This document shows positions 2,469-27,061 of a DNA stretch of 60,813 nucleotides, in pieces. This DNA comes from Amaricoccus solimangrovi (GTDB lineage: Bacteria > Pseudomonadota > Alphaproteobacteria > Rhodobacterales > Rhodobacteraceae), in contig NZ_VFRP01000025.1 of NCBI RefSeq assembly GCF_006385685.1, positions 1 to 60,813 on the forward strand, given 5' to 3'. How positions within the stretch are numbered: position 1 is the stretch's first letter; every line of letters begins with the position of its first letter. The translations under genes were made by a program, and so were the position numbers. A model generated the notes under the pieces. The model did no database searches. It was not told where the DNA came from and saw only the letters and a list, made by a program, of their open reading frames with translations.

Positions 2469-2479
2469 CCAAGCCGGAT

Positions 2480-2593
2480 GCTTACCCATCAGGCGCTCGG
2501 CGGCAAAGCCGATCATTTCGCGCAACAGGTCCGCATCGGCGCTCTTTCCACCAGAGCGCGCAGGTCCATCATGGGTTTGGTCATCGGGGGCAT
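2480..2593 (-). pseudogene. N-terminal fragment of an IS256-family transposase with a frameshift
   Basis: Leftward from ATG 2593 (or 2584) the sequence reads MTKPMMDLRALVE, then a one-base deletion near 2546. It resumes in the next frame as KSADADLLREMIGFAAERLM. This is the start of IS256-family transposases of the ISRm3/ISRm5 kind. Homology stops at about 2480, close to the IS4 inverted repeat, as if the Tn5-like element had landed in it. Only about 35 of some 400 residues remain. Confidence 0.7.
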
Positions 2594-2719
2594 GCCTCGG
2601 TTCAGGTTGGCTCAGCAACCCGACCCTACCGGGAAACCCGATGACCGCCGCGAGCTACACCATCAGATGGGGCACGATGGCCGCCTCCGCCAACGTCACC
2701 CCGCGCCCCACGGAACGCT

Positions 2720-3425: not shown

Positions 3426-4208
3426 TCAGCCCAGGTCGGCGTAGTCCGGCGTTTCCCGGCCGATGATCCGCCGGACGCTCGCGAGATGCAGCCGCGCGCT
3501 TTCGGCGTCCCCCGCGCGGATCTGCCGCGCCGTCTTCTCAGCCAGCTGTGGTGGCACAGGAACCAGCGGCCGGCCGGTCGAGAGCGCCTTGATCTGCGCC
3601 TCGGCGGCGCGCTCGAGATAGTAGAGGTCGTCCCAGGCCTCGGCGATCGTGGGCGCGATCACCATCACGCCGTGGTTCCGCATGAAAACCACGTCGGCGT
3701 CGCCGAGCGTGGCGGCGATGCGCGCGCCCTCCTCAGCGTCGAGCGCAAGGCCGTTGTAGTCGCGGTCATAGACTACGCGGCCGCGGAACTTCAGCGCGGT
3801 CTGCCCGGCGTAGACGAGTGGCTCGCCCTCGGTCATCGCCAGCGCCGTCGCCCAGGGCATGTGCGTGTGGAAGGCGGCCGCCGCGCGCGGCAGCAGCCGG
3901 TGCAGCTGGGCGTGGATGTGGAAGGCGGTCGCCTCGGGGGCGCCTTCGCCCTCGAGCACGTTGCCTTCGAAGTCGCAGATCACGAGATCCGCCGCGCGCA
4001 CCTCCTCGAAGGCGAGGCCGTAGGGGTTGACGACGAAGAGATCGGGGTGAGCGGGCACGACGGCGGAGAAGTGGTTGCAGATCCCCTCCTGCAGCCCGAG
4101 CCGGGCGGCCATACGGAGGCAGGCGGCGAGGTCGCGCCGGGCCTCGCGGATCTCGGGGGTATCGAGCCCCGCGCGGGTCGCGCGCTGGACGTCGAGCTCA
4201 TGCGCCAT
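3426..4208 (-). CDS. Class II aldolase/adducin-family protein
   Basis: A 260-residue cytosolic protein of the fold that includes L-fuculose-phosphate aldolase and related lyases and decarboxylases. The zinc-binding and catalytic set is visible: Glu92 in APEATAFHIH, His114 and His116 in FHTHMPW, and His179 in MRNHGVM. The closest style is the 'class II aldolase/adducin' enzymes that accompany amino-acid and organic-acid catabolic operons, so the substrate cannot be named. It is the last gene of a leftward operon (binding-fold protein, cyclodeaminase, amidohydrolase, LivH, LivM, aldolase). Its ATG overlaps the end of livM by 11 bp, which points to translational coupling. The position suggests cleavage of a late pathway intermediate. 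Confidence 0.85.
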   Translation of the reverse strand: MAHELDVQRATRAGLDTPEIREARRDLAACLRMAARLGLQEGICNHFSAVVPAHPDLFVVNPYGLAFEEVRAADLVICDFEGNVLEGEGAPEATAFHIHAQLHRLLPRAAAAFHTHMPWATALAMTEGEPLVYAGQTALKFRGRVVYDRDYNGLALDAEEGARIAATLGDADVVFMRNHGVMVIAPTIAEAWDDLYYLERAAEAQIKALSTGRPLVPVPPQLAEKTARQIRAGDAESARLHLASVRRIIGRETPDYADLG

Positions 4209-5244
4209 GGGTCTTCTCCATTTCCTTCTCGGGCTCCGGCTCCGGGTCGACCGCCGGCGACGGGCCGGGGCGGCGGAGCTTCACCGCGCCCAGGAGCCCC
4301 TGCGGCCGGACCAGCACCACGAAGAGCAGGAGCCCGCCCGCGATGTAAAGCCGGTAGTCCGAGATGCCGCGCGCGCTCTCGAAGATGCCGATGATCACGG
4401 CGGCGCCGAGGATGGTGCCGGGAACCGAGCCGAGCCCGCCGACGAGCACGATCGCGAAGACTAGGGTGCTTTCCCAGTTGGTGAACATGTCGGGCCCGAC
4501 ATAGCTCAGGAAATGCGCGACGATGGCGCCCGCGACGCCGCTGATTCCGGCGCCTAGGCCGAAGGCGAGCAGCTTGTAGCGGGCGACGTTGATCCCGACC
4601 GCGCGGGCCGCGATCTCGTCCTCGCGCACCGCGAGGAAGCAGCGGCCGATGTCGGAGGCGCTGATCCGGTTGGTGATCGCCACCACGACCGCGAGCAGCG
4701 CGAGCGAGAGCAGGAAATATTCCTGGTTGGTCCATAGCTGGTGCCCGAAGAGGCTGATCGGCGGGATGTTCGGCAGGCCGACGGCGCCGTTCGTCACGCT
4801 GTCCCAGTTGAGGAAGACGAGGCGGCAGATCTCGGCGAAGCCGATGGTGACGAGGAAGAGATAGTCGCCGCCGATCCGCGTCGCGGGATAGCCGATCAGC
4901 AGGCCGAAGGCCGCCGAGAGCGCGACGGCGCAGATGAGCGTGATCGGGAAGGGCAGGCCCAAGTGGATCGTGAGCAGCGCCGAGGTATAGGCGCCGATCC
5001 CGTAGAAGGCCGCCTGCCCGTAGGAGAGTTGGCCGCAAAAGCCGGTGATGATGTTCTGCCCGAGCGCCAGGATCGACCAGATCGCGATCATCGTGAACAT
5101 GCGGAACAGGTACTGGTCGGTGATGACGAGCGGCGAGAGCGCGGCGAGGCCGAAGCCCAGGGTCCAGAGGACGCCCGGCGGGATGGAGCGCAGCGTGCCC
5201 ACGAGCGAGCGGCCTTCGGTCGGTCCGGTGGTCATGTCGGTCAT
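4198..5244 (-). CDS. livM: LivM-type branched-chain amino acid ABC permease (module A)
   Basis: A 348-residue inner-membrane protein with about nine hydrophobic segments and the BPD_transp_2 signatures (GQNIITGFCGQLSYGQAAFY near residues 60-80; GGLGSVPGTILGA near 270; RPQGLLGAV near the end). It has the usual family length plus a charged C-terminal tail (residues about 325-348). It should pair with LivH, encoded 4 bp upstream. There is no ATPase gene in this operon; the matching LivG/LivF/LivK genes lie at 12.8-15.9 kb under the same kind of promoter. The substrate is unknown, and the neighbouring enzymes suggest a cyclic or N-substituted amino-acid derivative rather than leucine. Confidence 0.92.
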   Translation of the reverse strand: MTDMTTGPTEGRSLVGTLRSIPPGVLWTLGFGLAALSPLVITDQYLFRMFTMIAIWSILALGQNIITGFCGQLSYGQAAFYGIGAYTSALLTIHLGLPFPITLICAVALSAAFGLLIGYPATRIGGDYLFLVTIGFAEICRLVFLNWDSVTNGAVGLPNIPPISLFGHQLWTNQEYFLLSLALLAVVVAITNRISASDIGRCFLAVREDEIAARAVGINVARYKLLAFGLGAGISGVAGAIVAHFLSYVGPDMFTNWESTLVFAIVLVGGLGSVPGTILGAAVIIGIFESARGISDYRLYIAGGLLLFVVLVRPQGLLGAVKLRRPGPSPAVDPEPEPEKEMEKTHGA

Positions 5245-5248
5245 CCCC

Positions 5249-6133
5249 TCAGACCTTCACCTGGATCGGCCGGCCGAACAGGCCCTGCGGCCGCACGAGC
5301 AGGACGAGGATCAGGAGCCCCATCGCGATCCCGTCGCGATAGCCGGTGTCGAAATAGGCCGCCGCCAGCGCCTCGGCGACGCCGAGCACCAGGCCGCCGA
5401 CGAAGGCGCCCTTGATGTTGCCGATGCCGCCGATCACCGCCGCGACGAAGGCCTTCATCATCACGGTGAAGCCCATCATCAGGTAGACGGTGTTGTAGTT
5501 GATCGCGAAGAGGATGCCGCCCGCGACGCCGAGGAGGCCCCCGAGCACGTAGACCATCGCGATGGTGCGGTTGACCGGGATCCCCATGTAGCCCGCCGCG
5601 TCGATGTCCTGCTGCACCGCGCGCATCGCCTTGCCGATCATCGTCTTGCGCACGAAGAGGTCGGTCGCGAGCATGAGCGCGAGCGCCACGCCGAAGACCG
5701 CGACCTGGGTCGAGGTGACGCCGATACCGAAGACCTCGGCCCGCGCGACCGGGATGTCGAGCGGGAAGGGCTCGGTCGTGGTGCCCCAGATGAGCTGGGC
5801 GGTGTTGCGGATGATGAGCGCCACGGCGATCGCGCTCACCGTCGGCACCATGCGGTGCGCGGTCCGGGTCGGGCGGAAGGCGATGCGCTCGATGAAGAAG
5901 CCCATCGCGCCGCCGAGCAGAATCCCGAGCGGGATCGCCGCGATCGCCGGGACGCCGACGAGCATCAGCGCCATGGCGACATAGGTGCCGAACATCAGCG
6001 TGTCGCCATGGGCGAAATTGTGCATCTGCAGGACGCCGAAGACCATGCTGTAGCCGACGGCGATGAGCGCGTAGATGCTGCCGGCCGAGAGGCCGTTCAG
6101 GATCTGCGCGAAGAAATACTCCAGTCCGGTCAT
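5249..6133 (-). CDS. livH: LivH-type branched-chain amino acid ABC permease (module A)
   Basis: A 294-residue membrane protein beginning LEYFFAQILNGLSAGSIYAL, the usual LivH opening. It carries the conserved MVFGVLQMHNFAHGDTLMFG block (residues about 30-50) and the C-terminal VIGGIGNIKGAFVGGLVLG. Eight hydrophobic segments are apparent. It forms the heteromeric channel with LivM. It lies 7 bp downstream of the amidohydrolase gene, so enzyme and permease are co-transcribed. Confidence 0.92.
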   Translation of the reverse strand: MTGLEYFFAQILNGLSAGSIYALIAVGYSMVFGVLQMHNFAHGDTLMFGTYVAMALMLVGVPAIAAIPLGILLGGAMGFFIERIAFRPTRTAHRMVPTVSAIAVALIIRNTAQLIWGTTTEPFPLDIPVARAEVFGIGVTSTQVAVFGVALALMLATDLFVRKTMIGKAMRAVQQDIDAAGYMGIPVNRTIAMVYVLGGLLGVAGGILFAINYNTVYLMMGFTVMMKAFVAAVIGGIGNIKGAFVGGLVLGVAEALAAAYFDTGYRDGIAMGLLILVLLVRPQGLFGRPIQVKV

Positions 6134-6140
6134 CGCCCCC

Positions 6141-7508
6141 TCACGCCCGCGGCAGGAATTGTCCGGCGCCCGGCCACGCCGCGAGCCCCGCGTGCGAGAA
6201 GACCTCCGTGCCGCGCAGGAAGGTGGCCCGGATCCGGCCGGTGCAGCGCGTGCCGTCGAAGGGCGACCATTTCGCCTGGCCCTCGAAGGCGGCCGCGTCG
6301 ATCACGGTCTCGCCCTTCGGGTCGAGCAGGATCAGGTCGGCGTCGAAGCCGGGGGCGATCGCGCCCTTGCGGCCGTAGAGGCCGAAGATCCGCGCCGGGC
6401 CGGTCGCGATCATCCGGCCGATCAGCGCAGGATCGAGCCCCCGGTCGAGCGCCGCGCCGATGAAGATCGGCGTCGTGGTCTCGATCCCCGTCAGCCCCAT
6501 CGCCGCCTCCCAGATCGACGCGGTCTCCTTGAGCGCGATCGGATAGGGGCAGTGGTCGGAGGTGAGCGCGTCGATTGTCCCGGTCGCGACCTCGGCCCAG
6601 AGATCCTCGACCGTGGCGCGCGGCCGGATCGGCGGGCCGCAGCGGGCGATGCCGCCGATCCGCTCGAGGTCGTCCTCGTCGAGCACGAGATACTGTGGGC
6701 AGGTCTCGACCGTGACGATCCGGCCGGCGGATCGCGCGGCGTCGATGATGCGCGCGCCGTTGCCAGTCGAGAGATGCACGATGTGGAGCCGCGCGCCGTG
6801 ATGGCCGGCGAGATGGATCGCACGCGCCACCGCCTCGGTCTCGGCGATCTCGGGCTGGGCGGCGCCATGGGCGCGGCCGCCGTCGGCGCCGGCCGCGCGC
6901 AGGCGCGCCATGCTGCCCTGGATGATGTCGTGGTTCTCGGCGTGGAGCCCGAGCAGGGAGCCGACGGCGGCGATCTCGCGCAGGGCCTCGCTCAGCGCGT
7001 CGTCGTCGAGGCCGGGCAGGCCGCGCGCGTCGCCGGCCGCGCGGTCGGCGCGGCCCGAGCAGCTGAACGCCTTCATCGCCACCGCGCCCGCCTCGTGCAT
7101 CGGCGCGATCTGGTCGAGGTTGGCACCGGTGAGCCCGCCCCAGAGCGCGAAATCGACGCAGGCGTGCGCGGCCATCGTCTCGCGCTTCGCAAGGAACCGC
7201 TCCAGCGTGGTCGCGGGCGGGTTCATGTGCGGCATCTCGATCACCGTCGTGACGCCGGCCTTGGCCGCGCCGGCGGTGCCAGCCTCGATCTCGGGCAGGA
7301 TGTCGTCGTGGCCGGCGGTGAAATGCGTATGCGCGTCGATGGCGCCCGGGAGCAGCATCAGGCCCTCGGCGTCGATGACGCGGGTCGCGGAGGGGACGGC
7401 GGCGGCGCCGTCGACGAGGGCCGCGATCCGGCCGTCGCTTACTCCGACGTGAAGGCGCGCCGCTCGATCCTCGAGAACAACGGTGGCGCCGGCGATGACG
7501 AGATCCAT
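6141..7508 (-). CDS. Allantoinase/dihydroorotase-like cyclic amidohydrolase
   Basis: A 455-residue member of the cyclic-amidohydrolase branch (allantoinase, dihydropyrimidinase, dihydroorotase), which opens cyclic amides using a binuclear metal centre. The metal ligands are all in place: His60 and His62 (DAHTHF), Lys146 for carboxylation (AMKAFSC), His189 (GLHAEN), His245 (HIVHLST) and Asp318 (TSDHCPY). The ETCPQYL block is typical of allantoinases. The context (LIV-type permeases, a cyclodeaminase homologue, aminotransferase and RidA nearby, no ureidoglycolate or glyoxylate genes) argues against simple allantoin use. Ring opening of another cyclic ureide, hydantoin or lactam is inferred. Confidence 0.88.
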   Translation of the reverse strand: MDLVIAGATVVLEDRAARLHVGVSDGRIAALVDGAAAVPSATRVIDAEGLMLLPGAIDAHTHFTAGHDDILPEIEAGTAGAAKAGVTTVIEMPHMNPPATTLERFLAKRETMAAHACVDFALWGGLTGANLDQIAPMHEAGAVAMKAFSCSGRADRAAGDARGLPGLDDDALSEALREIAAVGSLLGLHAENHDIIQGSMARLRAAGADGGRAHGAAQPEIAETEAVARAIHLAGHHGARLHIVHLSTGNGARIIDAARSAGRIVTVETCPQYLVLDEDDLERIGGIARCGPPIRPRATVEDLWAEVATGTIDALTSDHCPYPIALKETASIWEAAMGLTGIETTTPIFIGAALDRGLDPALIGRMIATGPARIFGLYGRKGAIAPGFDADLILLDPKGETVIDAAAFEGQAKWSPFDGTRCTGRIRATFLRGTEVFSHAGLAAWPGAGQFLPRA

Positions 7509-7523
7509 GTCAGCCTGTCCGTT

Positions 7524-8570
7524 TCAGAAGTCGTAGTTGGTTTCGGGGTCGGCGAGGAAGTCGAGCCAGGTGCCGATCCCCGCCGCAGCCGCGCGGGTCG
7601 CGACCAGCCGGCCGAGGATCATGTCCTCGATCGGCATGCCCTCGTTCATCGAGAAGATGAATTCGTCCGCGCGTTCGCGCCCCGGCTTGGCGCCCGCCGC
7701 GATCTCGTGGAGTTCCGCGTGGAGTTTCGGCAGGCCGTTCGGGAAATGCCCGCCCTCGGCGACCCAGGTCAGCATGTCCCAGCGGTCGGTGACGAACTTG
7801 TCCGCCGAGAGATAGGCCTCCGGCTCCCAGACGGTGCCGACGTCGATCGGCATGACCAGCGCGCCCGGGGCGATCCAGTCGCGACGGAGGCAGGGATCGG
7901 GCAGCATCGCGAACTTGGTCGCCGAGACGACTACGCCCGCGTCGCGCACCGCCGCCTCGGCGCTCGGGGCGATAGTGATCGCCCGGCCGGTGCGCCGCTC
8001 CATCTGGTCGCGGAACCGCGCCGCGGCCTCGGGGCGGATGTCGTAGGTCGCGATCGTTTCTGGGCTCAGCACTTCGAGCAGGCCGAGCAATTGCGTCCGC
8101 ATCTGGACGCCGCAGCCGATCAGCGCGAGCTTTTCCACCTTCTCCGGCGCGAGATGCTTCGCCGTCACCGCCGAGGCGGCGCCGGTGCGCATCGCGGTGA
8201 TCCAGGTGCCGTCGATCACCGCGACCGGTAAACCGGTCTCGGGATCGTTGAGAAGCACGAGCGCGGTGAGATTGGGCAGGCCCTTCGCGACATTGGCCGG
8301 AACCTCGGCGTTCCACTTGATGCCGAGCCCGCCGCCGTCGCGGAGATAGGCGGCGTTGCCGTTCAGCCGCCCGCCGTCCTTCCAAGGCAGGCTCGCCTTG
8401 CCCGGCATCAGCGCCGTCCCGGCGTGCTGGACGGCGAGGCAGTCCTCGACCGCCGCGATCACGTCGCCCATGCCGACGCCGAGTGCGACGAGATCGGCGC
8501 GGGAGAGATAGAGCAGCCGGCCGGGCGGAAGCGCCGCGGCGCGCGCGGTCTCGCGGAAGGCCAGCGTCAC
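7524..8570 (-). CDS. Ornithine cyclodeaminase/mu-crystallin family protein
   Basis: A 348-residue protein of the NAD(P)-dependent OCD/alanine dehydrogenase/ketimine reductase family. Key positions are Lys85 (LGIKWNA), Arg128 (AMRTGAAS) and the Rossmann motif IGCGVQ at 151-156; GVVVSATK follows. The N-terminus is longer than in classical OCD, and the C-terminal region (NEGMPIEDMILGR) matches uncharacterised OCD-like proteins of Rhodobacterales. It overlaps the end of the upstream gene by 4 bp (ATGA). In this context it may reduce or deaminate a cyclic imine or imino acid produced from the imported substrate. Confidence 0.85.
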   Translation of the reverse strand: MTLAFRETARAAALPPGRLLYLSRADLVALGVGMGDVIAAVEDCLAVQHAGTALMPGKASLPWKDGGRLNGNAAYLRDGGGLGIKWNAEVPANVAKGLPNLTALVLLNDPETGLPVAVIDGTWITAMRTGAASAVTAKHLAPEKVEKLALIGCGVQMRTQLLGLLEVLSPETIATYDIRPEAAARFRDQMERRTGRAITIAPSAEAAVRDAGVVVSATKFAMLPDPCLRRDWIAPGALVMPIDVGTVWEPEAYLSADKFVTDRWDMLTWVAEGGHFPNGLPKLHAELHEIAAGAKPGRERADEFIFSMNEGMPIEDMILGRLVATRAAAAGIGTWLDFLADPETNYDF

Positions 8571-9511
8571 GCGCCTGCTCCGGCGGCGACGTCGGTCGCG
8601 ACCAGCGCCTCGTAGGGGACCGGGGTCTCGAACCAGCCGGTCTCCATCAGGAGCGTCCGGAAGCGCTCGAAATCAGCGCGGGAGATCACCGGCGCGGTGG
8701 CCCAGAGGCCGAGATCCTTGTAGGCGCCGATCCCGTGGATGAGTGCCGCGCGCGGATAGCCGGGGTAATAGGCGCCGACCTGATCGGCGATCGCCTCGGG
8801 GTCGGTCGCGGCGACCCAGTCGAGGGCGCGGCCGATCGCGGCGGCGAAGGCGGCGAAATCCGCGCGGCGCGCGTCGAGCGTCTCGGCGCGGGTGATATAG
8901 GCGCTCCAGGGCACGTCGCCGGTGAACCGGGCGAGGTCGGAGAGCGCGTGAAGCTCGCCCGCCGCCAGCGCCGGGGCGAGGGCGTGCATCGAGTGGTAGA
9001 TGACATCCGCCCCGCCGCCCGGGCCGCGGCCGGCGATGAAATCGGTGATCGCCTCGGGGTCCTCGTGCGCGAGCTCGATCACCTCGACCGCGTCGCTCAG
9101 CCCGGCTTGGCTAAGCGCGTGGCGCAGGCTGAGCGTCGAGGTGGTGATCGAGGCCGCGTCGAACACGGTCCGGCCCGCGAGGCTTTCGAGCGTGAAACCC
9201 GGTTCGGCGGCGCGGCCGGTGAGATACCAGGGGTTCTTCGCTACCAGCGCGCCGAAGTTCACGAGATGGGCGGAGCCCTCGGCGAACATCCGCATCGTGA
9301 CCATCGGGCCGCCGACGGTGAGGTCGGCCGCGCCGCTCAGCACGGCGGGAATCTGGCCGCTCTTGGCGAGATGGTCGCCGTGCTCGGCCCAGACGAATTC
9401 CACTTCGAGCCCTTCGTCGGCGAAGAAGCCTCGGTCCTGGGCGACGAAGTGCGGCAGGAAATAGATCCGCCCCTCGGTCGGGTCACCCTGGTTCATCCTG
9501 AGCTTTCGCAT
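8567..9511 (-). CDS. NMT1/THI5-like (SsuA/TauA-fold) protein without a signal peptide
   Basis: A 314-residue protein with the NMT1/THI5-type binding-protein fold: YFLPHFVAQDRGFFADEGLEV (first 20 residues quoted from position 17 on are YFLPHFVAQDRGFFADEGLE), GQIPAVLSGAADLTVGGP, SLAGRTVFDA and FAAAIGRALDWVA. Exported relatives begin with a signal sequence, whereas this one starts MRKLRMNQGDPTEGRIYFL. No in-frame upstream extension is possible, because the promoter -10 region lies only about 50 bp upstream. It is therefore predicted to be cytosolic. It is the first gene of the operon, ahead of the cyclodeaminase gene, and no permease or ATPase of the Ssu/Tau type accompanies it. An enzymatic or sensory role, as for yeast THI5, is possible. 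Confidence 0.8.
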   Translation of the reverse strand: MRKLRMNQGDPTEGRIYFLPHFVAQDRGFFADEGLEVEFVWAEHGDHLAKSGQIPAVLSGAADLTVGGPMVTMRMFAEGSAHLVNFGALVAKNPWYLTGRAAEPGFTLESLAGRTVFDAASITTSTLSLRHALSQAGLSDAVEVIELAHEDPEAITDFIAGRGPGGGADVIYHSMHALAPALAAGELHALSDLARFTGDVPWSAYITRAETLDARRADFAAFAAAIGRALDWVAATDPEAIADQVGAYYPGYPRAALIHGIGAYKDLGLWATAPVISRADFERFRTLLMETGWFETPVPYEALVATDVAAGAGA

Positions 9512-9557
9512 CGGCGCCTCTCGTCGGAATCCTGGCGCGCGGTGCGCCTTGAGTTCG

Positions 9558-9587
9558 CATAATGTATACTTTCATACTTGTGTCAAC
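9558..9587 (-). promoter_or_regulatory. Promoter and presumed GntR operator of the left module A operon
   Basis: On the minus strand a -35 box TTGACA (9586-9581) and a -10 box CATTAT (9564-9559) are 16 bp apart. The spacer holds GTATAC and a further GTAT half-site (plus strand aatgtatactttcatac). The same arrangement recurs at 16038-16067; 25 of 30 bases are identical there, including all functional elements. FCD-GntR proteins typically bind GTATAC-centred palindromes, so this is the likely site of the module A regulator. Upstream of the divergent aminotransferase there is also an AT-rich stretch (9627-9660) with a possible -35 TTGAAA at 9635. Confidence 0.72.
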
Positions 9588-9753
9588 GTCTGCTGGCCTG
9601 TAACGTGCGGCTCGACGATCCGGCGATTAACATGTTGAAATATATTCATTATATTTCCATGATCTCACTCGCTCCGCCTGCTTTCGACTCGCGCCGTAGC
9701 CAAGAGTTTTTGGTCGAGGCGTCCGCAACCCGCGAATTGAGGGATTCGAAACT

Positions 9754-11079
9754 ATGACCCGACCCGACCCGAAATCCCTCGCCGAGGCGCTCGATACGGC
9801 GCGCGACGCCTATCGCGCGCGCAACCCGCGCAGCGCGGAACTGCACGCGGCGGCGCGGGCGACGATGCCGGGCGGCAATACCCGGACCGCGCTCCACTTC
9901 GCGCCCTTCCCGCTCTACGCGGCGCGGAGCGCGGGCGCGCGGATCACCGACGTCGACGGGCACGACTATCTCGACGCGCTCGGCGAATACACCGCCGGCC
10001 TCTACGGCCACAGCCATCCGGTGGTGGTCGAGGCGGTGCGGGAGACGCTGGCCGCGGGGGTCTCGAACGGCGCCCCGGGGCCCGCCGATGTTGCGCTGGC
10101 GCGGCTGATCGCGGAGAGGTTCCCAGCGGTCGAGCAGCTGCGCTTCTGCAATTCGGGCACCGAGGCCAATCTCTACGCGCTGACGCTGGCGCGGATCGCC
10201 ACCGGGCGCGGCGCGGTGATGGCCTTCGAGGGCGCCTATCACGGCGGGGTGCTGAACTTCGGCGGCGGCGCGGCGATGCGGGCGGCGATGGACTGGCGGG
10301 TGGAGCGGTTCAACGATCCCGCCATCGGCGACAGGATCCGCGCGGCGGGCGACCGCCTCGCGGCGGTGATCGTCGAGCCGATCATGACCAACGCCGGCTG
10401 CATCCCGGCCGAGCCCGCCTTCCTAGCCGCGCTGCGCGAGGCCTGCGACGCGACGGGCGCGCTGCTGATCTTCGACGAGATCGTGACCTCGCGGCATGGG
10501 CCGGCCGGGGCGCAGGGGCTCTACGGGCTGCGTCCGGACCTGACGACGCTCGGCAAGTATCTCGGCGGCGGCTTCAGCTTCGGCGCCTTCGGCGGGCCGG
10601 CGGAGCTGATGGCGCGGTTCGATCCGTTCCGGCCGGACGGGCTGCCGCACGCCGGCACCTTCAACAACAACGTCTTCTCGATGCGGGTCGGCGCGGCGGC
10701 GCTGGAGCGGGCGTTTCCGCCCGAGCGGGCGGAGGCTCTCTTCGCGGACGGCGAGCGATTGCGGTGCGAGTTGAACGCGATCTGCGCGGGGCTCGATCTT
10801 CGGGTCCGGTTCACGGGGCGCGGCTCGATCATGGCGGTTCACTTCACAGCCGATCCGATCCTCCGCCCGGACGATCTCCCCGCGCAGACCGAGGAGCGAG
10901 CGCTCCTTCATCTCGATCTGATCGAAGCCGGGCTCTACAGCGCGCCGCGTGGGCAGTTCGCGCTGTCGCTCGCCATGGAGGCGGCGGATATGGCTGAGAT
11001 TTCCACGACGATCTCCGCCGCGCTCGAGCGCCGCCGCGCGCTCTACCCTCAGGACGCGGGGCTCGGCGCCCGGGCCTGA
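9754..11079 (+). CDS. Class III PLP-dependent aminotransferase (glutamate-1-semialdehyde aminomutase-like)
   Basis: A 441-residue fold-type I PLP enzyme. Visible landmarks are GGNTRTALHF, the phosphate-binding NSGTEAN (133-139), the cofactor Asp241 in LLIFDEIVTSR and the Schiff-base Lys268 in TTLGKYLGGG. It resembles HemL-like aminotransferases, but genomes of this kind carry a separate hemL and this copy sits in a catabolic cluster. Transamination of an amino-acid-like intermediate or decarboxylation product is therefore inferred. It is transcribed rightward from the region that also drives the left operon. Its 3' end overlaps the convergent GntR gene by 31 bp. Confidence 0.9.
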   Translation: MTRPDPKSLAEALDTARDAYRARNPRSAELHAAARATMPGGNTRTALHFAPFPLYAARSAGARITDVDGHDYLDALGEYTAGLYGHSHPVVVEAVRETLAAGVSNGAPGPADVALARLIAERFPAVEQLRFCNSGTEANLYALTLARIATGRGAVMAFEGAYHGGVLNFGGGAAMRAAMDWRVERFNDPAIGDRIRAAGDRLAAVIVEPIMTNAGCIPAEPAFLAALREACDATGALLIFDEIVTSRHGPAGAQGLYGLRPDLTTLGKYLGGGFSFGAFGGPAELMARFDPFRPDGLPHAGTFNNNVFSMRVGAAALERAFPPERAEALFADGERLRCELNAICAGLDLRVRFTGRGSIMAVHFTADPILRPDDLPAQTEERALLHLDLIEAGLYSAPRGQFALSLAMEAADMAEISTTISAALERRRALYPQDAGLGARA

Positions 11080-11732
11080 GCCTGGCGCGCGAGATAGACG
11101 CGCAGAATGTGATCCTCGATCAGCTCGTCGAGCACGCCGAGCTTGCCGACCTCGATCGCCTCGAGCAGGATCTCGTGATCGCGGATGTTGCTTTCGTTGT
11201 CGTAGTAGGCGTCCCGCTCCTGGGCGAGAAATACGAGAATGCCGCGCGCGAGCATTTCCCAGACGGTCATCAGGGTGGCGCTTTCCGAGAGCCGCACGAT
11301 GGACTGGTGGAATTCGAGATCCGCCTGACAGGCGGCGACGCGGTTCTCGGTGGTGGCCGGGACGCGCATCTGTTCCAGCGCGCGCCGGAGAGGGCGGAGG
11401 TTGGCCGGGTCCCTGCGGACAGCGGGGATCGCACGCCGCAGCGCGAGACGCTCGACCGTCAGGCGGATCCGCAGCATCTCGGTGGTCTCGTCCGAGCCGT
11501 GGTGCCGCACGAAGTTGCCGCGGTTCGGCTCGGTCCGGACCACCCCCTGCGCCTGCAGGAGCCGGAGCGCCTCGCGCACTGGGACACGGCTGACGCCGAG
11601 CGTCTTGCAGAGTTCGTTCTCGTAGAGCCGGTCGCCGGCGCTGATCTCGCCCTTGGCGATCAGGATCACGATATGGTCGGCGACCTGGTCGGGCAGACTG
11701 CGATGGCGAAATTCCTCGTTGTCGTAAGACAA
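11049..11732 (-). CDS. GntR-family (FadR/FCD subfamily) regulator of module A
   Basis: A 227-residue regulator. The winged-helix domain (residues about 10-75) contains ELCKTLGVSRVPVREALRLL. The FCD effector domain (about 85-215) has the Asp/His metal-site pattern (DLEFHQSIV, and NIRDHEILLEAIE near the end). It is the last gene of the leftward operon livK-ridA-livG-livF-FMN protein-gntR, 16 bp after the preceding gene, so it would be autoregulated. The GTATAC-containing promoters at 9558 and 16038 are its most likely targets. An acidic pathway intermediate is the usual kind of effector in this subfamily. Confidence 0.9.
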   Translation of the reverse strand: MSYDNEEFRHRSLPDQVADHIVILIAKGEISAGDRLYENELCKTLGVSRVPVREALRLLQAQGVVRTEPNRGNFVRHHGSDETTEMLRIRLTVERLALRRAIPAVRRDPANLRPLRRALEQMRVPATTENRVAACQADLEFHQSIVRLSESATLMTVWEMLARGILVFLAQERDAYYDNESNIRDHEILLEAIEVGKLGVLDELIEDHILRVYLARQAQARAPSPAS

Positions 11733-11748
11733 AATGTCACCTTTGACT

Positions 11749-12798
11749 TCAGAGTCTTGTTACGTGGTCAGAACTGAACGCGCCGACTCGGTCCACGCCC
11801 ATCCAGAAACAGATCGTGTAGAAGTCATCCAAGAATTTCGACAGAAAATCACCAACCGCGTCCTCTCCCTCGGCGATCGCCATGTATACGATCGGCCGGA
11901 CCATGGTCACAAGATCGGCGCCGAGGCAGGCTGCGACCACCGCGTCGGCGGCGTTCCGGACCCCGCCGTCGAGCACCACCGCGCCGCGCGTCCCGACCGC
12001 CGCCGCGACGGTTGGGAGCCGGGCGACCGCCGGAGCCCAGCGGTAGAGGTTACGGACACCGAGGTTCGAGATCGCGACCCCGGCGCAGCCGGCGTCGAGC
12101 GCGCGGGCCGCGTCGGCGGGATCGAGCACGCCCTTCAGATGCACCGGCAGGCCGAGCGCCGCGGCTTCGGCGACGAAGGCGGCGAGGTCGGCCCAGCTCC
12201 AGGCGGGGGAGGCGTGGACGGTGTGATCGCCGCCTTCGGCCGCGATCGGACGGAGCCCGCGCTCGCGGGTCGCGGCCTGGATGTCGAGGCCGCCGGGGAA
12301 GAGCCCGGGGCGGGGATGCGCGGGGGCGAGCGCGGTCAGCACAATGCCGCGCGCGCCGGAGTCCGCCGCGTGGCCCGCGAGCGCCAGCGCGCGGTCTAGC
12401 GGCCCCGCGCCCCGCAGCTGCAGCGCCACGCAGCCGTTGACCGCGGTGATCTCGGGCAGCGGGGTCAGGCATTCCTCCGAGATGACGATCGGTAGCCGCA
12501 GGCGCCCGGCGGCGCGGGCGATCGGCACCACGCCCATGGGATCGAGGATCCGGTCGGCGGCGAAGGCGCCGACCAGCAGCGGCGCCGCGACCCGGTGGCC
12601 GAGCCAGTCGACGCCGATATCGGTGTCGGCGATCCCGGTCAGGAGCCGGGGCACCAGCCGGTAGGCGTCGAAGGCGGCCTCGTTCGGGTCGCTGGCGCCG
12701 GGGTCCATGTCGCGCGGGCGGCCCTCGAGATAGCGTTCGAGCTCCGGGCCGATCCGGTCGCGGACCGCCGCCCGCAGCGAGGACGGGATCTCGCCCAT
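11749..12798 (-). CDS. FMN-dependent alpha-hydroxy-acid oxidase-fold protein with an altered active site
   Basis: A 349-residue TIM-barrel flavoprotein of the lactate/glycolate oxidase family. FMN-binding features are present: ISEEC around 107-110, Lys222 in LPVHLKGVLD, and VVLDGGVRNAADAV at 275-288. The segment that normally reads SNHGGRQ, with the proton-abstracting His, is SNLGVRN here (244-250), with Leu246 in the catalytic position. It is thus unlikely to oxidise 2-hydroxy acids by the standard mechanism. It may be a reductase or isomerase (as in type 2 IPP isomerase) or have another flavin role. It is one base downstream of livF and is followed by the regulator gene. Confidence 0.82.
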   Translation of the reverse strand: MGEIPSSLRAAVRDRIGPELERYLEGRPRDMDPGASDPNEAAFDAYRLVPRLLTGIADTDIGVDWLGHRVAAPLLVGAFAADRILDPMGVVPIARAAGRLRLPIVISEECLTPLPEITAVNGCVALQLRGAGPLDRALALAGHAADSGARGIVLTALAPAHPRPGLFPGGLDIQAATRERGLRPIAAEGGDHTVHASPAWSWADLAAFVAEAAALGLPVHLKGVLDPADAARALDAGCAGVAISNLGVRNLYRWAPAVARLPTVAAAVGTRGAVVLDGGVRNAADAVVAACLGADLVTMVRPIVYMAIAEGEDAVGDFLSKFLDDFYTICFWMGVDRVGAFSSDHVTRL

Positions 12799-12799
12799 G

Positions 12800-13537
12800 T
12801 CAGAGCTTCCCCAGATAGGCGTTCTTCATCTCCGGGTCGTTCAGCAGGTTCGCCGCCGTGTCCGCCATCACGATCTTGCCGGTCTGGATCACATAGCCCC
12901 GGTGCGCGATCGAGAGCGCGGCGTTGGCGTTCTGCTCCACGACGAAGATGGTGACGCCCATCTGGTTGAGCTGCTTGATGATCTCGAAGACGCGCTGCAC
13001 GAGAAGCGGCGAGAGGCCCATCGAGGGCTCGTCCATACAGATGAGCTTCGGGTCGGACATGAGCGCCCGGCCGATCGCGAGCATCTGCTGCTCGCCGCCC
13101 GACATCGTGCCGGCGAGCTGGCCGACGCGTTCCTTGAGCCGGGGGAAGAGGGTGAAGACCTTGTCGTAGCTCGCCGAGAGGTCGCCGCCCCGGGTATAGG
13201 CGCCGAGCTCGAGGTTCTCCATCACGGTCATTTCGGGAAAGACCCGCCGCGCCTCGGGCACCGGCGCGATGCCGGCCTTCACCCGCGCGCCGGTCTCCCA
13301 GCCGTCGATCCGCTCGCCCCGGAAGCTGATCGAGCCGCCCCGGAGCTTCGTGATGCCGAGGATCGACTTCATCGTGGTCGACTTGCCCGAGGCATTGCCG
13401 CCGAGCAGGCAGACGATCTCGCCCTCGTAGAGCTCGTAGTCGACCGAGCGCAGCACGTGGTGCGGCCCGTACCAGACGTCGATCTTCTCGACCTTAAGCA
13501 GCGGTTGCTGGGTGTCCAAGATAGGCCTCGATGACAT
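12800..13537 (-). CDS. livF: LivF-type ABC transporter ATPase (module A)
   Basis: A 245-residue nucleotide-binding subunit. Walker A is the slightly unusual GGNASGKST (normally GPNGAGKST), the signature is MSGGEQQML, Walker B is LICMDEP, and the switch His is replaced by Gln in VVEQNAN, as in most LivF proteins. The start overlaps livG by 44 bp. No permease is encoded in this operon; LivH/LivM at 4.2-6.1 kb are the evident partners. Confidence 0.92.
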   Translation of the reverse strand: MSSRPILDTQQPLLKVEKIDVWYGPHHVLRSVDYELYEGEIVCLLGGNASGKSTTMKSILGITKLRGGSISFRGERIDGWETGARVKAGIAPVPEARRVFPEMTVMENLELGAYTRGGDLSASYDKVFTLFPRLKERVGQLAGTMSGGEQQMLAIGRALMSDPKLICMDEPSMGLSPLLVQRVFEIIKQLNQMGVTIFVVEQNANAALSIAHRGYVIQTGKIVMADTAANLLNDPEMKNAYLGKL

Positions 13538-14297
13538 GTGTGTCGTTGCGTACGGTTTCGGCGTCGCCCTCGGCGATCTTCTTGCCCTGGTCGAGCACCA
13601 CCACGAAATCGGAGACCCGGTTCACCACGTCGAGCTTGTGCTCGATGATCGCCATGGTGAGGCCGGAGGCGCGGATCTCCTGGATGTTCTCGACGAGTTC
13701 GGCCGTCTCGTAGGGGTTCATGCCCGCCGTCGGCTCGTCGAGGAGCAGGAGCTTCGGATTGACCGCGAGCGCGCGGGCGATCTCGACCCGGCGCCGGTTC
13801 GCGTAGGACAGGGTGAAGACTGGATGATCGAGCCGGGGGAAGAGCCGGTGCCGGAAGAGCGAGAGATGCGCGAGCGCGGCCTCGCGCGCGGCTTCCTCGC
13901 GGCGGCGCAGGCCCTTGCGGCCGATGACCGTCTCCAGGAGGCCGGCGCGCACCGAGGTGTGCATCCCGATCATCACGTTCTCGATCACCGTGAGGTTGTT
14001 GAAGAGCCGGATGTTCTGGAAGGTGCGCGCGATCCCGGCCTGGGCGATCCGGTGCCCGGGCAGGCCGGTCAGGTCGACCCCCTCGAGCCGGATCGCGCCG
14101 GAATCCGGCGCGTAGATCCCGGTCAGCAGGTTGAAGAAGGTCGACTTCCCCGAGCCGTTCGGGCCGATGATCGTGACGACCTCGCCCCGCTCCAGCCGCA
14201 GGTCGACGCCTCCGACGGCCTGCACGCCGCCGAAGGCCTTGCCGAGACTCGAGACCTCGAGCAAGGGCGCCGCGTCGGAATGCGCGCGCTTGGTCAC
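13494..14297 (-). CDS. livG: LivG-type ABC transporter ATPase (module A)
   Basis: A 267-residue nucleotide-binding subunit. The start chosen is GTG at 14297, which overlaps the ridA stop codon (GTGA) and gives the family's usual length. A longer reading frame to 14453 would run through ridA. Walker A GPNGSGKST, Q-loop FQNIRLFNNLTV, signature region LSYANRRRVEIARAL, Walker B LLLLDEPTAGM and switch IIEHKLDVV are all intact. Confidence 0.92.
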   Translation of the reverse strand: MTKRAHSDAAPLLEVSSLGKAFGGVQAVGGVDLRLERGEVVTIIGPNGSGKSTFFNLLTGIYAPDSGAIRLEGVDLTGLPGHRIAQAGIARTFQNIRLFNNLTVIENVMIGMHTSVRAGLLETVIGRKGLRRREEAAREAALAHLSLFRHRLFPRLDHPVFTLSYANRRRVEIARALAVNPKLLLLDEPTAGMNPYETAELVENIQEIRASGLTMAIIEHKLDVVNRVSDFVVVLDQGKKIAEGDAETVRNDTHVIEAYLGHPATAA

Positions 14298-14698
14298 GCG
14301 GCCCGCCGGTGGGCGATGACCTCGATCTCGACCAGCAGCGTCGGATCGGCGAGGACGATCCCCACGGTCGAGCGCGCCGGCTTCGGATCGGCGAAGTAGG
14401 TCTTGTAGACGCCGTTCATCGCGGTGAAGTTCGCGACGTCGGTGATGAAGCACAGGCTCTTAACGACGTGGTCCGGAGTCAGACCCTCGGCGGCGAGCAG
14501 CGCCTTGATGTTCTCCATCGTCTGCCGGGTCTGCTCCTCGATCCCGCCCTCGACGATCTTGCCCGTGGCCGGATCGATCCCGACCTGGCCCGAGAGATAG
14601 ACGAAATCCTCGATCACCACGGCGGGCGAGAGTGGGGCGGGACCCATCGGCTTTTCGCCGTCGGCGACACCGGGATAATTGAGCGCTTTCTTGGCCAT
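14294..14698 (-). CDS. ridA: RidA/YjgF-family reactive imine deaminase
   Basis: A 134-residue RidA-type protein. These trimeric proteins hydrolyse reactive enamines and imines released by PLP and flavin enzymes. Family blocks are VYLSGQVGIDP, EQTRQTMENIKALL, and ARSTVGIVLAD with the conserved Arg, followed by VEIEVIAHR near the end. ATG 14698 is preferred because GGAG lies six bases upstream; an in-frame ATG at 14710 lacks this. Its presence between the binding-protein and ATPase genes fits a pathway with imine intermediates (aminotransferase and cyclodeaminase homologues are nearby). Confidence 0.9.
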   Translation of the reverse strand: MAKKALNYPGVADGEKPMGPAPLSPAVVIEDFVYLSGQVGIDPATGKIVEGGIEEQTRQTMENIKALLAAEGLTPDHVVKSLCFITDVANFTAMNGVYKTYFADPKPARSTVGIVLADPTLLVEIEVIAHRRAA

Positions 14699-14718
14699 CA
14701 CAGTCTCCATTCTCCTGC

Positions 14719-14770
14719 CCCGGGGGCCCGTGCCCCCGGGCGATCGACGGCCGGTCCCATGGCCGGCCGT
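14719..14770 (-). other. Two perfect hairpins between livK and ridA
   Basis: The gap between the binding-protein stop and ridA contains CCCGGGGGC-ccgt-GCCCCCGGG (14719-14740) and ACGGCCGG-N8-CCGGCCGT (14747-14770), with no following T-tract. Such structures after a binding-protein gene usually protect the upstream mRNA or terminate part of the transcripts, giving more binding protein than membrane subunits. Confidence 0.65.
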
Positions 14771-14778
14771 CCCGCGTC

Positions 14779-15933
14779 TCATTTGACGTAAGGGACGAAC
14801 TCGCCGTTCTTGACGGCGAAGATCACCATCTCCTTGCCCTTCACGTCGCCGTTCTCGTCGAACTGGAGATGGCCCGAGACGCCCTCCATGTTCATCGTGC
14901 GCATCACCTCGGACATCGTCTCCTTGGTGGCGCCCGCCTCGATCGCCGCCTTGTAAAGATAGGTCACGTCGTAGTTGTGCGCTTCCTGCTCGGTCGGCGG
15001 ATGGCCGAAGAGGCGCATGGTCTTCTCGCGGAACTCCGCCGTCTTCGGCGCGTCCGAGAGCGAGTTGAACGAGGCGAAGATCAGCAGCCCCTCGACCGCG
15101 TCGGCGCCGGCGAGGTCGATGAACGGCCCCTGGCGCAGCCCGTCGAATCCGGCTTTCAGCACCGACCCGTCGGTGGTCAGGCCGAGGCGATAGGCCTGGT
15201 TGAAGATGGCCCCGCCCTCGCCATACTGGCCGACGAGGAAGAGCGCGTCGGGCGAGGCGGCCATGATCTTGGTGAGCTGCGCCGCGAAGTCGCGGTCGAC
15301 GGCCGGCTGGTAGGTCTCGGCGGCGACGATCTCGGCGCCGAGCGCGTGCGCGGTCTCGGTCGCGGATTCGAGCGCGCCTTTGCCGTAGTCGCTGTTCTCA
15401 TAGATGATCGCGATCTTCTTGCGGCCCTCGACCTCGACGAGCTGCTGGATCACCACCGGCGCCTGGCCCTGGTCGTTGATGATGACGCGGAAGATGTTGT
15501 CGAAGCCCATGTGGGTCACCTTCCAGGCGGAAGAGTTCCCCGAGACCTCGGTCAGCCCGGCGCGCTTGTAGATCGGGAGCGCGGCCATGGTGGCGGAGGA
15601 GTTGATATGACCGATCACGCCGATTACCTCGGAATCCGAGGCGATTCGCTGCGCGACGGCGGCGGCGCCCTCGGGCTTGCCCTCGTCGTCGTAGAAGTCG
15701 ACGACCAGCGTCTTGCCGCCGACGCCGCCCGACGCGTTGATCTCCTCGACGGCGAGCTCGATGCCCGCCTTCATGCGCTGGCCCGTCTCGGCCGAGGGAC
15801 CGGTCATCGGGCCCGCGGCCGCGAGCTTCACGGTTTCCTGGGCCATGGCCCGGCCAGGCAGGACCGCCGCCATGGCGAGCGCGGTGGCGGTCATCGCTCC
15901 ATAGAGAAGCCGCCGACGCTTGGTATCGATCAT
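14779..15933 (-). CDS. LivK-like periplasmic substrate-binding protein (module A)
   Basis: A 384-residue type I periplasmic binding protein. The N-terminus has KRRRLLYGAM followed by a hydrophobic stretch ending at GRAMAQ, a cleavable signal with possible Tat character. The mature part starts ETVKLAAAGPMTGPSAETGQ and keeps GVIGHINSSATMAALP and NDQGQAPVV, features of Leu/Ile/Val-type binding proteins. It is the first gene of the operon and is followed by hairpins. As the amidohydrolase, aminotransferase and other enzymes are co-regulated, it probably binds the pathway's substrate rather than leucine. Confidence 0.9.
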   Translation of the reverse strand: MIDTKRRRLLYGAMTATALAMAAVLPGRAMAQETVKLAAAGPMTGPSAETGQRMKAGIELAVEEINASGGVGGKTLVVDFYDDEGKPEGAAAVAQRIASDSEVIGVIGHINSSATMAALPIYKRAGLTEVSGNSSAWKVTHMGFDNIFRVIINDQGQAPVVIQQLVEVEGRKKIAIIYENSDYGKGALESATETAHALGAEIVAAETYQPAVDRDFAAQLTKIMAASPDALFLVGQYGEGGAIFNQAYRLGLTTDGSVLKAGFDGLRQGPFIDLAGADAVEGLLIFASFNSLSDAPKTAEFREKTMRLFGHPPTEQEAHNYDVTYLYKAAIEAGATKETMSEVMRTMNMEGVSGHLQFDENGDVKGKEMVIFAVKNGEFVPYVK

Positions 15934-16037
15934 TCTCGTGCACCCTTTTTCACTGCGCGGCCGTCGCCCATCGCGCGGCCGGATCTGGACGATTGCCGGA
16001 GGCCTCCCTTTCCGTCCGGTGCAACCTTGAATATCTT

Positions 16038-16067
16038 CATAATGTATACTTTGATACGGAGGTCAAC
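16038..16067 (-). promoter_or_regulatory. Promoter and presumed GntR operator of the livK operon
   Basis: On the minus strand TTGACC (16066-16061) and CATTAT (16044-16039) are 16 bp apart, with GTATAC and a GTAT half-site in the spacer, matching the site at 9558-9587. On the plus strand TTGAAT (16027-16032) and TTTGAT (16050-16055), 17 bp apart, could drive the divergent dehydrogenase from the same site. One bound repressor would then close both directions. Confidence 0.7.
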
Positions 16068-16111: not shown

Positions 16112-17089
16112 ATGAAATACATGCATATCCACCTCGCATACGATCCAGATGGCCCCGCGGACCTTTGTCCGGTCGAGGCGCGAATCCGGAAAGAAATCGA
16201 ATCCTTGGCCTCGGACGAGGCCCGGATCGCCTTCACGGCGGCGCCCGAGGCGGCGGGGATTCCGCCCGAAACGGAGGTGCTCTACGCGGCGGGCGGGATC
16301 ACCGCCGCCGGCGCGCGCGCGGCCGCGCCCGGCCTCGCCTGGATGCAGATTACCTCCGCCGGGGTCGAGAAGCACATGAAGGGCTTCCCCGAGGGGCTCG
16401 CGCTCACCAACGCCTCCGGGGTGCACGCGGCCAAGGGCGGCGAATACGCGCTCGCCGCCGCCCTGATGCTGACCTACCAGGTTCCGAAATTCGTCGATGA
16501 CCGCGCCGCCCGCCGCTGGGAGCCGGTCTTCGGCCCGACGCTCGGCGCGAAGACGGTGACGCTGCTCGGCACCGGCGCGATCGGGGCCGGCGCGGCGCGG
16601 GCGCTCCGGCCCACCGGCTGCCGGCTGATCGGCGTCAACCGGAGCGGCGAGACCGAGGCGCCGGTCGATCACTGCCTCCGGACCGACGCGCTCGACACGG
16701 TGCTCTCGGAAACCGACATCCTGATCTCCACCCTGCCGCTCACGCCGCTGACCGAGGGGCTGGTCGACCGGCGCCGGATCGATCTCCTGCCGGAGGGGGC
16801 GGGCGTCGTCGTGCTCGGGCGGGCGCGGGTGCTCGACTACGCGGCGATCTTCGACCGGCTCGACGCGGGCACGCTCGGCGGCGCGGTGCTCGAGGTCTTC
16901 CCCGTGGAACCGGCGCCGGAGCATGACCGGATGTGGACCACGCCCCGCGTCATCGCCTCGCCGCATTGCAACGTCGACGACCACGCCACCTATATCGCCT
17001 CCTGCGACGCGATCTTCCTCGACAACCTCCGGCGCTATCTCGCGGGCGAGTCGCTCGCGAACCGCGTCGATCCCACCCTCGGATATTGA
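16112..17089 (+). CDS. D-2-hydroxyacid dehydrogenase family protein
   Basis: A 325-residue NAD(P)-dependent dehydrogenase. The Rossmann motif is GTGAIG (153-158), preceded by KTVTLL. The catalytic trio is Arg237 in LGRARVLD, Glu266 in FPVEP and His285 in IASPHCN. It would interconvert a 2-keto acid and a D-2-hydroxy acid. It is transcribed divergently from livK and immediately followed by an acid-sugar-dehydratase-like gene, so both may process the carbon skeleton left after nitrogen removal. Confidence 0.88.
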   Translation: MKYMHIHLAYDPDGPADLCPVEARIRKEIESLASDEARIAFTAAPEAAGIPPETEVLYAAGGITAAGARAAAPGLAWMQITSAGVEKHMKGFPEGLALTNASGVHAAKGGEYALAAALMLTYQVPKFVDDRAARRWEPVFGPTLGAKTVTLLGTGAIGAGAARALRPTGCRLIGVNRSGETEAPVDHCLRTDALDTVLSETDILISTLPLTPLTEGLVDRRRIDLLPEGAGVVVLGRARVLDYAAIFDRLDAGTLGGAVLEVFPVEPAPEHDRMWTTPRVIASPHCNVDDHATYIASCDAIFLDNLRRYLAGESLANRVDPTLGY

Positions 17090-17099
17090 AGGCCGCTCC

Positions 17100-18296
17100 A
17101 TGAACGTCGAAATCACCGCCCCGGCCGCGCATGCCGCCACTCTGCCGCCCGCGCGGATCCGCCGGATCGTCGCGGCCCCGCTCGCCGGCGCCAGCCCGAA
17201 GGGCGGCTGGTCAGAGGAGATCCAGCCGCAGGATTCGGTCCATACCCTGATCGCGGTCCATACCGACGCCGGCGTCATCGGCCATGGCAGCGTCTTCACC
17301 GACGGCCGGCTGGTCGCGGCGGGGCTCGAGGTGCTGGAGCCTCTGTTCCTCGGGGAGAACGCGCTCGAGCCCGAGCGCGTCGCCGAGAAGCTGCACCAGA
17401 ACACCTTCTGGATGGGGCGGGGCGGCACGCTCACCCATGTGATCAGCGGCATCGACATCGCGCTCTGGGACATCCTCGGCAAGATGACCGGCCTTTCAGT
17501 CGGCCAGCTGCTCGGCGGCCGCTATCGCTCGAAGGTGCAGCCCTATTGCTCGCTGCTGATGGACGAGCCCGCGGTCATGGCCGAGGAGCTCGCCACCTTC
17601 CGCGAGCGCGGGGGGTTCCGCGCCTTCAAGATCGGCTGGGGCCCATTCGGCCGGCGCGACAGCTATGCCTCGGACGAGGCGATCATCCGCGCCGCGCGCG
17701 AGGCGATCGGACCGGAGTCAAAGCTCTTCGTCGACGCGGGCGGGTCGGACGCACATTGGAACGCCAATCTCAAATGGGCGACGCGCACCGCCGAGATGCT
17801 CGCGGATTACGACGTGGCCTGGTTCGAGGAGGCGCTCCGGCCCGACGCGATCGAGGATTTCATCGCCCTGCGCCACGCGAGCCCGGTGCCGATCGCGGGC
17901 GGCGAGGTGCTGACCCGGCGACAGACCTTCCTGCCCTGGCTCGCGCGCGGCGCGCTCGACATCGTGCAGCCCGACGTGACCAAGGTCGGCGGCATTTCCG
18001 AGCAGCGGCGGATCGCCTGGATGGCGGATGAATTCGGCGTGACCTATGTCGGCCACGGCTGGAACACCGCGCTCGGGGTCGCGGCGGATCTGCAGATGGC
18101 GGCGGCGTTTCCGAAGGTCGACTACGTCGAGTTCATCGGCGGCAGCGCCTATGTCGACGGGATCCTGACCGAACCGTTCCGGCTCGACGCCGACGGCTAT
18201 CTCGAGATCCCCGACCGGCCCGGCCTCGGCGTCGAGCTCGACCTCGACCGGCTCGCCGCCTACGCGCCGAACGCGCGCGAACTCGGGACCGGGTGA
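17100..18296 (+). CDS. Mandelate racemase/muconate lactonizing enzyme-like (enolase superfamily) protein
   Basis: A 398-residue protein; ATG 17100 is 10 bases after the dehydrogenase stop. Enolase-superfamily residues are in place: Lys177 (AFKIGWG), metal ligands Asp212 (VDAGG), Glu243 (WFEEAL) and Glu269 (GGEV), Asp292 (QPDVTKVGG), the general-acid His319 (VGHGWN) and Glu344 (YVEFI). The His-Asp dyad places it in the mandelate-racemase subgroup, which is rich in acid-sugar dehydratases and racemases. Abstraction of a proton alpha to a carboxylate is predicted; the substrate cannot be read from sequence. Confidence 0.88.
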   Translation: MNVEITAPAAHAATLPPARIRRIVAAPLAGASPKGGWSEEIQPQDSVHTLIAVHTDAGVIGHGSVFTDGRLVAAGLEVLEPLFLGENALEPERVAEKLHQNTFWMGRGGTLTHVISGIDIALWDILGKMTGLSVGQLLGGRYRSKVQPYCSLLMDEPAVMAEELATFRERGGFRAFKIGWGPFGRRDSYASDEAIIRAAREAIGPESKLFVDAGGSDAHWNANLKWATRTAEMLADYDVAWFEEALRPDAIEDFIALRHASPVPIAGGEVLTRRQTFLPWLARGALDIVQPDVTKVGGISEQRRIAWMADEFGVTYVGHGWNTALGVAADLQMAAAFPKVDYVEFIGGSAYVDGILTEPFRLDADGYLEIPDRPGLGVELDLDRLAAYAPNARELGTG

Positions 18297-22878: not shown

Positions 22879-22887
22879 GCTCTTCCC

Positions 22888-27058: not shown

Positions 27059-27061
27059 GGT

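Follow-up and report, generated by a model that had tools for sequence, protein, structure and literature searches.

The GntR regulators of the FadR subfamily, i.e. those with an FCD domain, are known to recognize sites that follow the consensus GTM-N0-1-KAC, and GntR sites may be accompanied by weaker additional half-sites at 7-12 nt from their centre (PMC4494728). We analyzed a stretch of 60,813 nucleotides from Amaricoccus solimangrovi (contig NZ_VFRP01000025.1; the whole stretch is referred to below as the window), in which, between 3.4 and 18.3 kb, the genes for an ATP-binding cassette (ABC) importer of the Liv or HAAT type are divided over two operons that also specify enzymes and a GntR protein. 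A comparison with clusters in other genomes makes it likely that this split importer is part of a single GntR-controlled catabolic regulon, in which the importer has been exchanged and the regulator, the core of its operator and the enzymes have been kept. The exchange of an importer within a recurring regulon is a more interesting point than the split itself. A description of the content and the substrate of the present regulon was not found among the FadR-subfamily regulons, and the literature searched, from which subscription journals were excluded so that novelty is not implied, held no account of the cluster.

Two tight leftward operons and two rightward units make up the locus (Table 1). 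Operon 1, running from 9511 to 3426, encodes an NMT1/THI5-like protein, a member of the ornithine cyclodeaminase (OCD) family, an amidohydrolase, LivH, LivM and a class II aldolase; operon 2, running from 15933 to 11049, encodes LivK, RidA, LivG, LivF, an FMN_dh enzyme and the GntR protein. Judging from the gene spacing, each operon would yield a single transcript. An earlier, sequence-only reading of this DNA had noted that the permeases and the ATPases are kept apart, and the domain content agrees: operon 1 has two PF02653 permeases but lacks an ABC ATPase, and operon 2 lacks a permease but has two ABC_tran proteins next to a single Peripla_BP_6 protein. Together these are the parts of a HAAT (LivKHMGF) importer, and LivG and LivF are the best NCBIfam models for the two ATPases, whereas the genes are split over two operons and the other seven Liv sets found in the genome are contiguous. 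The NCBIfam scores remain below the cut-offs, which are set at the equivalog or subfamily level (LivH 217/379, LivG 259/362, LivF 246/441, LivM 207/366 and the binding protein 169/477 bits); by these matches, the importer is of the Liv/HAAT kind and distinct from the named branched-chain amino-acid transporter.

The promoters of the two operons are much alike. The stretches 9558-9587 and 16038-16067, 6.5 kb apart, are identical at 25 of 30 bases, precisely as had been read from the sequence before, and the promoter scan recovered TTGACA-16-CATTAT (9586-9559; 10/12) in the one and TTGACC-16-CATTAT (16066-16039; 9/12) in the other. Promoter-like sites number four in the first region and one in the second, against a mean of 0.1 per region in shuffles. 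In both promoters the operator box lies inside the 16-bp spacer and touches the -10, the first base of which is overlapped by the operator of operon 1. The 19-bp core GTATNAAAGTATACATTAT has two matches at up to three mismatches in the genome of 4,862,969 bases, both exact and both in these promoters, and no match in 100 shuffled versions of the window. Of the five mismatches between the two stretches, four are situated between TTGAC and the GTAT half-site; the fifth is at the N of the operator. The bare hexamer GTATAC was discarded as evidence, as it occurs three times in the window (the third time inside the FMN_dh gene), a number reached by 6 of 100 shuffles and hence not significant; the argument thus rests on position and on the genome-wide specificity of the longer motif. 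To call the likeness direct evidence of co-regulation, as was done before, is too strong.

The GntR protein combines a GntR helix-turn-helix domain (PF00392, 62.3 bits) with an FCD domain (PF07729, 62.0 bits), the combination that defines the FadR subfamily; none of the NCBIfam regulator models exceeded its cut-off (the best was TIGR03338, with 101.1 of 271.5 bits). The GTATAC in the window fits GTM-N0-KAC, and the extra GTAT half-site beside the palindrome is likewise as described in PMC4494728, by which the putative operator is of a type already known for FadR-type GntR proteins. A gntR gene accompanies the operator core in five other genomes, in line with the proposal that this protein is the regulator acting at a dedicated GntR-type operator.

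The five other genomes share an enzyme core that consists of RidA, the D-2-hydroxyacid dehydrogenase, the FMN enzyme, the NMT1-like protein, the amidohydrolase, GntR and the enolase-family protein, with 31-54% identity to the proteins of the window. They are G485 (same family), Aureimonas pseudogalii (L067, G790), G875, G877 and, in another class of the same phylum, G1506. Their GntR proteins are 30-36% identical to that of the window; the stretch SRVP(V/I)REALR is present in all six, and the GntR and FCD domains were found in all three GntR proteins that were scanned. The importer at the same place in the core, behind the same kind of operator, is of the PAAT type in all five relatives, i.e. 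a family-3 (SBP_bac_3) binding protein together with a BPD_transp_1/ABC_tran fusion. This is an unrelated ABC family, with one binding protein and one fused permease-ATPase as opposed to five Liv proteins, and LivH or LivM lies inside the core in none of the five. The order of LivHM and LivFGK, which had been put forward as possibly conserved in related genomes, is consequently not kept there. With one genome against five, we infer that the Liv type replaced the PAAT type and not the reverse. In G485 a further Liv set lies about 9 kb beyond the core. Among the 25 best of 83 NCBIfam models none exceeded its cut-off for the Aureimonas fusion, the top ones being cystine, glutamine and ectoine transporters. 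A 909-residue frame in G875 (L097:875-3604, minus strand) joins permease, ATPase and FMN_dh enzyme and, if not a sequencing error, is a transporter fused to a pathway enzyme.

The operator core recurs with the enzymes. The cores of the five relatives contain eight GTATAC, all before transcription units, with about 4.8 expected from composition, so that the bare count is not used as evidence here either. One precedes ridA in each of the five (in G485 the frame 4248-4649 of L053; in G875 the site is 40 bp ahead of the matched part of ridA, within a frame lengthened to a TTG start), and further ones precede the NMT1-like gene and occupy the gntR/binding-protein divergence in G485 and precede the enolase gene in Aureimonas. 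Outside the cores, the fetched stretches hold three more (G875 5700, G1506 8658 and 8758). In the whole genomes of the window, G485 and Aureimonas, the full form GTATACNNNNATAC has five matches, all at the clusters, and its reversed control none. In the fetched stretches of G875, G877 and G1506, GTATACNNNNATAC is absent and the boxes read ATCGTATACGA, a form that occurs at five distinct places in these three genomes, four of them at the clusters and one elsewhere in G1506. Across the six genomes TTGAC-N12-GTATAC has six matches, five of which are cluster promoters (the two of the window and those of ridA in Aureimonas, G877 and G1506). With a leave-one-genome-out matrix, which was run on the fetched stretches only (20.9-60.8 kb each), a cluster site ranked first in six of six stretches and the two sites of the window first and second. 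Two additional sites were observed near ridA boxes: a weaker operator-like site in G485 (TATCGTAAACTATC, score 13.0, joined coordinate 24536 of L053), at 35 bp from the box, and a second perfect box in G1506 (AATCGTATACGATT, L121 8758), 158 bp upstream of the ridA box there.

A number of these results weigh against the reading of a single regulon with an exchanged importer. The form with the extra half-site, GTATACNNNNATAC, is found in the clusters of only three of the six genomes; TTGAC-N12-GTATAC also occurs once in G485 at a site unrelated to the cluster, and one match was obtained with its reversed control; and the TTGAC-N12 spacing is absent from all three boxes of G485, from the second of Aureimonas and from that of G875, where it is one base longer. 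The training sites of the matrix were chosen for GTATAC, so that its test is not independent, and the third GTATAC of the window (11884, in the FMN_dh gene) scores 9.3, against 10.4 and 9.9 for the two operators. Finally, none of the clusters recovered is an intermediate that carries a Liv importer. The genome's other Liv genes bear on the same question from two further sides, namely the unassigned permeases and the trees.

The alternative that survives best, although we consider it unlikely, is that the locus holds two decayed importers, of which LivHM would work with the ATPases of another set and LivKGF with other permeases, with nothing in common except the regulator. ATPases can serve several permeases, as in the MsiK-type sharing among sugar importers. 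In the genome there are 35 PF02653 permease matches and, counting that of operon 2, eight LivF-like ATPases with an identity of at least 37%. Each of the other seven stands in one place with its own H, M and G (L041, L128-L132 and window 24-28 kb), which speaks against the alternative; these sets account for 14 of the 35 permeases and operon 1 for two. The other 19 permeases, outside any assigned set and adjoining no LivF-like ATPase of this group, are a point in favour of the alternative. No incomplete Liv ATPase set was found elsewhere, and among the LivF-like ATPases of at least 37% identity there is no stray Liv-type pair for LivHM, and LivKGF is unlikely to have permease partners elsewhere. 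Also against two decayed importers, the operator has only two copies, one in front of each half.

The trees of 29 Liv sets are more equivocal. LivG and LivF of operon 2 are placed with C114, another Liv set of this genome (support 100/99), to which they are 55% identical; LivH and LivM also group with C114 in the best tree, weakly (60/63), and have at most 39% identity to anything in the tree set, an unequal closeness that favours two importers. The nearest set is the same for both halves in the best trees, which again argues for one. The objection that the sequence-only reading had raised against itself, a LivFG or LivHM pair elsewhere that fits one half better, did not materialize in that C114 is nearest to both. 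A grouping of LivHM with the C82 or the window-24-kb sets was rejected (p 1.4e-5 and 0.0029). A sister relation of LivHM with L036-L040 was not (p 0.341), whereas its equivalent for LivGF was (1.3e-6). Given this result and the weakness of the permease tree, the halves may differ in origin; a single origin is compatible with the trees but not proven by them. The trees are without the LivH loci L134, L135, L143 and L144, whose stretches did not yield the complete set of four Liv genes, and without the Liv genes of L053; from L145, which holds two sets, only the copy with the higher score was taken for each gene. A single importer divided over two probably co-regulated operons is on balance supported. 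In the C114 set, which is the nearest relative of LivGF of the window, LivH and LivM share one 610-residue frame with two BPD_transp_2 stretches (L041:8633-10462, minus strand).

If the locus indeed encodes one split importer within one GntR regulon, its working may be pictured as follows. Both operons, and probably the dehydrogenase/enolase unit, would form one catabolic regulon under the FCD-type GntR protein, dimers of which would, without effector, occupy GTATAC and the extra GTAT half-site between -35 and -10 and block RNA polymerase. The imported compound or an early intermediate would release GntR, upon which operon 1 would supply LivHM and operon 2 LivKGF at the same time; these would assemble into one HAAT-type importer and bring in the compound that the encoded enzymes degrade. 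The Liv importer would have come in place of the PAAT-type one, its genes having landed in two operons. As to the substrate, our guess is an amino-acid-like compound with a cyclic amide or ureide. That GntR activates rather than represses the two promoters is a slightly less probable alternative than that of two decayed importers: some GntR proteins do activate, and the -10 boxes (CATTAT) are imperfect, but the position of the box between -35 and -10 in both promoters fits blocking, and in front of ridA in Aureimonas, G877 and G1506 the box stands equally far from a TTGAC, which fits it as well. Copying of one promoter, or chance, in place of a common regulator could account for 25 identical bases in 30 but is very improbable, since the GTATAC core recurs with other flanks at the same enzyme core in five other genomes, none of the five differing bases falls on the fixed letters of GTATNAAAGTATACATTAT and no shuffle matched it.

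The case of one split importer in a GntR regulon would provide a clean natural example of an importer exchanged while its regulon stayed the same, and would show that the five parts of an importer can be held together by a common operator when they are not in a single operon. With a candidate pair of regulator and operator and six gene sets to compare, it would also help to narrow down the substrate of the pathway. Only tentatively do we put forward the fuller picture of a hitherto undescribed catabolic regulon that occurs sporadically in two or more classes of a single phylum, with regulator, operator core and enzyme core kept, an importer exchanged between unrelated ABC families, Liv halves joined by the shared operator alone and a cytoplasmic protein of binding-protein fold as a pathway enzyme.

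The four units of the locus do hold 15 genes, as counted before, but to regard them all as one regulon is too wide. The operator is found at both operons and in the region shared with the dehydrogenase/enolase unit (68 bp upstream of the start of the divergent D-2-hydroxyacid dehydrogenase gene, a unit for which the promoter scan gave no promoter-like site); it is absent at the promoter-like site of the aminotransferase gene (TTAACA-17-TATATT, 9627-9655), where the best matrix score is 4.2 as compared with 14.5 at 16044. By position, 12 genes are firmly, two probably and one doubtfully placed behind an operator.

Carriers of the core are rare in the genome samples, which overlap and were each searched with one probe at one threshold: 2 of 390 (order), 3 of 397 (order of Aureimonas), 2 of 388 (phylum; three weaker matches besides those fetched) and 2 of 379 (family; ten weaker matches of 35-40% identity besides those fetched). 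In the class sample of 385, only the NMT1-like probe's own genome was identified as a carrier; the probe had 12 matches of 26-30% in ten others, and the ten of these that were fetched, one stretch per genome, lacked the cluster. In plasmids the same probe gave seven weak matches. Several candidates were rejected in this way. With the FMN_dh probe (390 genomes), G485 carries the cluster and G588, G472 and G672 (34-35%) do not; a scan of species genomes gave the cluster at one of 26 loci (Aureimonas); for the amidohydrolase probe, five of eight matches in the phylum besides the own genome were fetched (G1506 carries the cluster; G358, G417, G1438 and G1358 do not) and three of 13 in the family, among which G485 has the cluster while G417 and G1734, both located on short contigs (6.2 and 8.6 kb), lack it. 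The LivH probe had no match in 72,556 plasmids at E 1e-50; among 41 genomes including its own, 34 contain Liv homologues, the best outside the window having 41% identity. In ten congeners it found nothing closer than E 1.9e-40 and 35% identity, hence the importer at least looks absent there.

Table 1. Promoters and genes of the locus (window coordinates)
Feature	Position	Strand	Basis and remarks
Class II aldolase family protein (NF005068), last gene of operon 1	3426..4208	-	
LivM-type permease	4198..5244	-	PF02653; NCBIfam below cut-off
LivH-type permease	5249..6133	-	PF02653; NCBIfam below equivalog cut-off
Cyclic amidohydrolase, allantoinase/hydantoinase-like	6141..7508	-	domain and model matches
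Ornithine cyclodeaminase/mu-crystallin family enzyme	7524..8570	-	domain match
NMT1/THI5-like protein, first gene of operon 1	8567..9511	-	PF09084; N-terminus; fold prediction
Operon 1 promoter with putative operator GTAT-N6-ATAC	9559..9586	-	GTATAC 9564-9569; -35 TTGACA, -10 CATTAT
Class III aminotransferase	9754..11079	+	own promoter-like site 9627-9655
GntR regulator with FCD domain, TTG start, last gene of operon 2	11049..11732	-	PF00392 and PF07729
FMN-dependent dehydrogenase family enzyme	11749..12798	-	
LivF-type ATPase	12800..13537	-	domain and NCBIfam
LivG-type ATPase, start uncertain	13494..14279	-	domain and NCBIfam
RidA-family imine deaminase	14294..14782	-	
LivK-type periplasmic binding protein, hydrophobic N-terminal segment	14779..15933	-	
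Operon 2 promoter with putative operator	16039..16066	-	GTATAC 16044-16049; TTGACC, CATTAT
D-2-hydroxyacid dehydrogenase	16112..17089	+	
Enolase-superfamily (MR/MLE) protein, start uncertain	17088..18296	+	

The NMT1/THI5-like protein, which occurs in all six clusters, enters the mature fold (L.NQGDPSEAR..YY) almost from its start, and a crude hydropathy measure revealed no strongly hydrophobic segment at the N-terminus. Its predicted fold (predicted local distance difference test, pLDDT, 86.9) is closest to those of thiamine-precursor binding proteins, Thi5 and DszB, with about 14-16% identity to Thi5 and 14-15% to DszB, and the protein is probably a cytoplasmic enzyme rather than the binding protein of the importer.

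The class II aldolase is 70% identical to the product of a gene that adjoins the Aureimonas cluster. On the same side of the locus lies a remnant of an IS4/5-type transposase (DUF4096; window 2454-3350), in the stretch of which 108 aligned bases are 85% alike to L052 14575-14681, just upstream of the G485 cluster, and window 2767-3376 resembles L067 4006-4681, which precedes ridA in Aureimonas, at 63%; the remnant and the similar flanks suggest mobility. On the other side a second catabolic set adjoins (window 19047-30289, minus strand), with hydantoinases A and B, an Asp/Glu/hydantoin racemase, a complete Liv importer and an IclR regulator.

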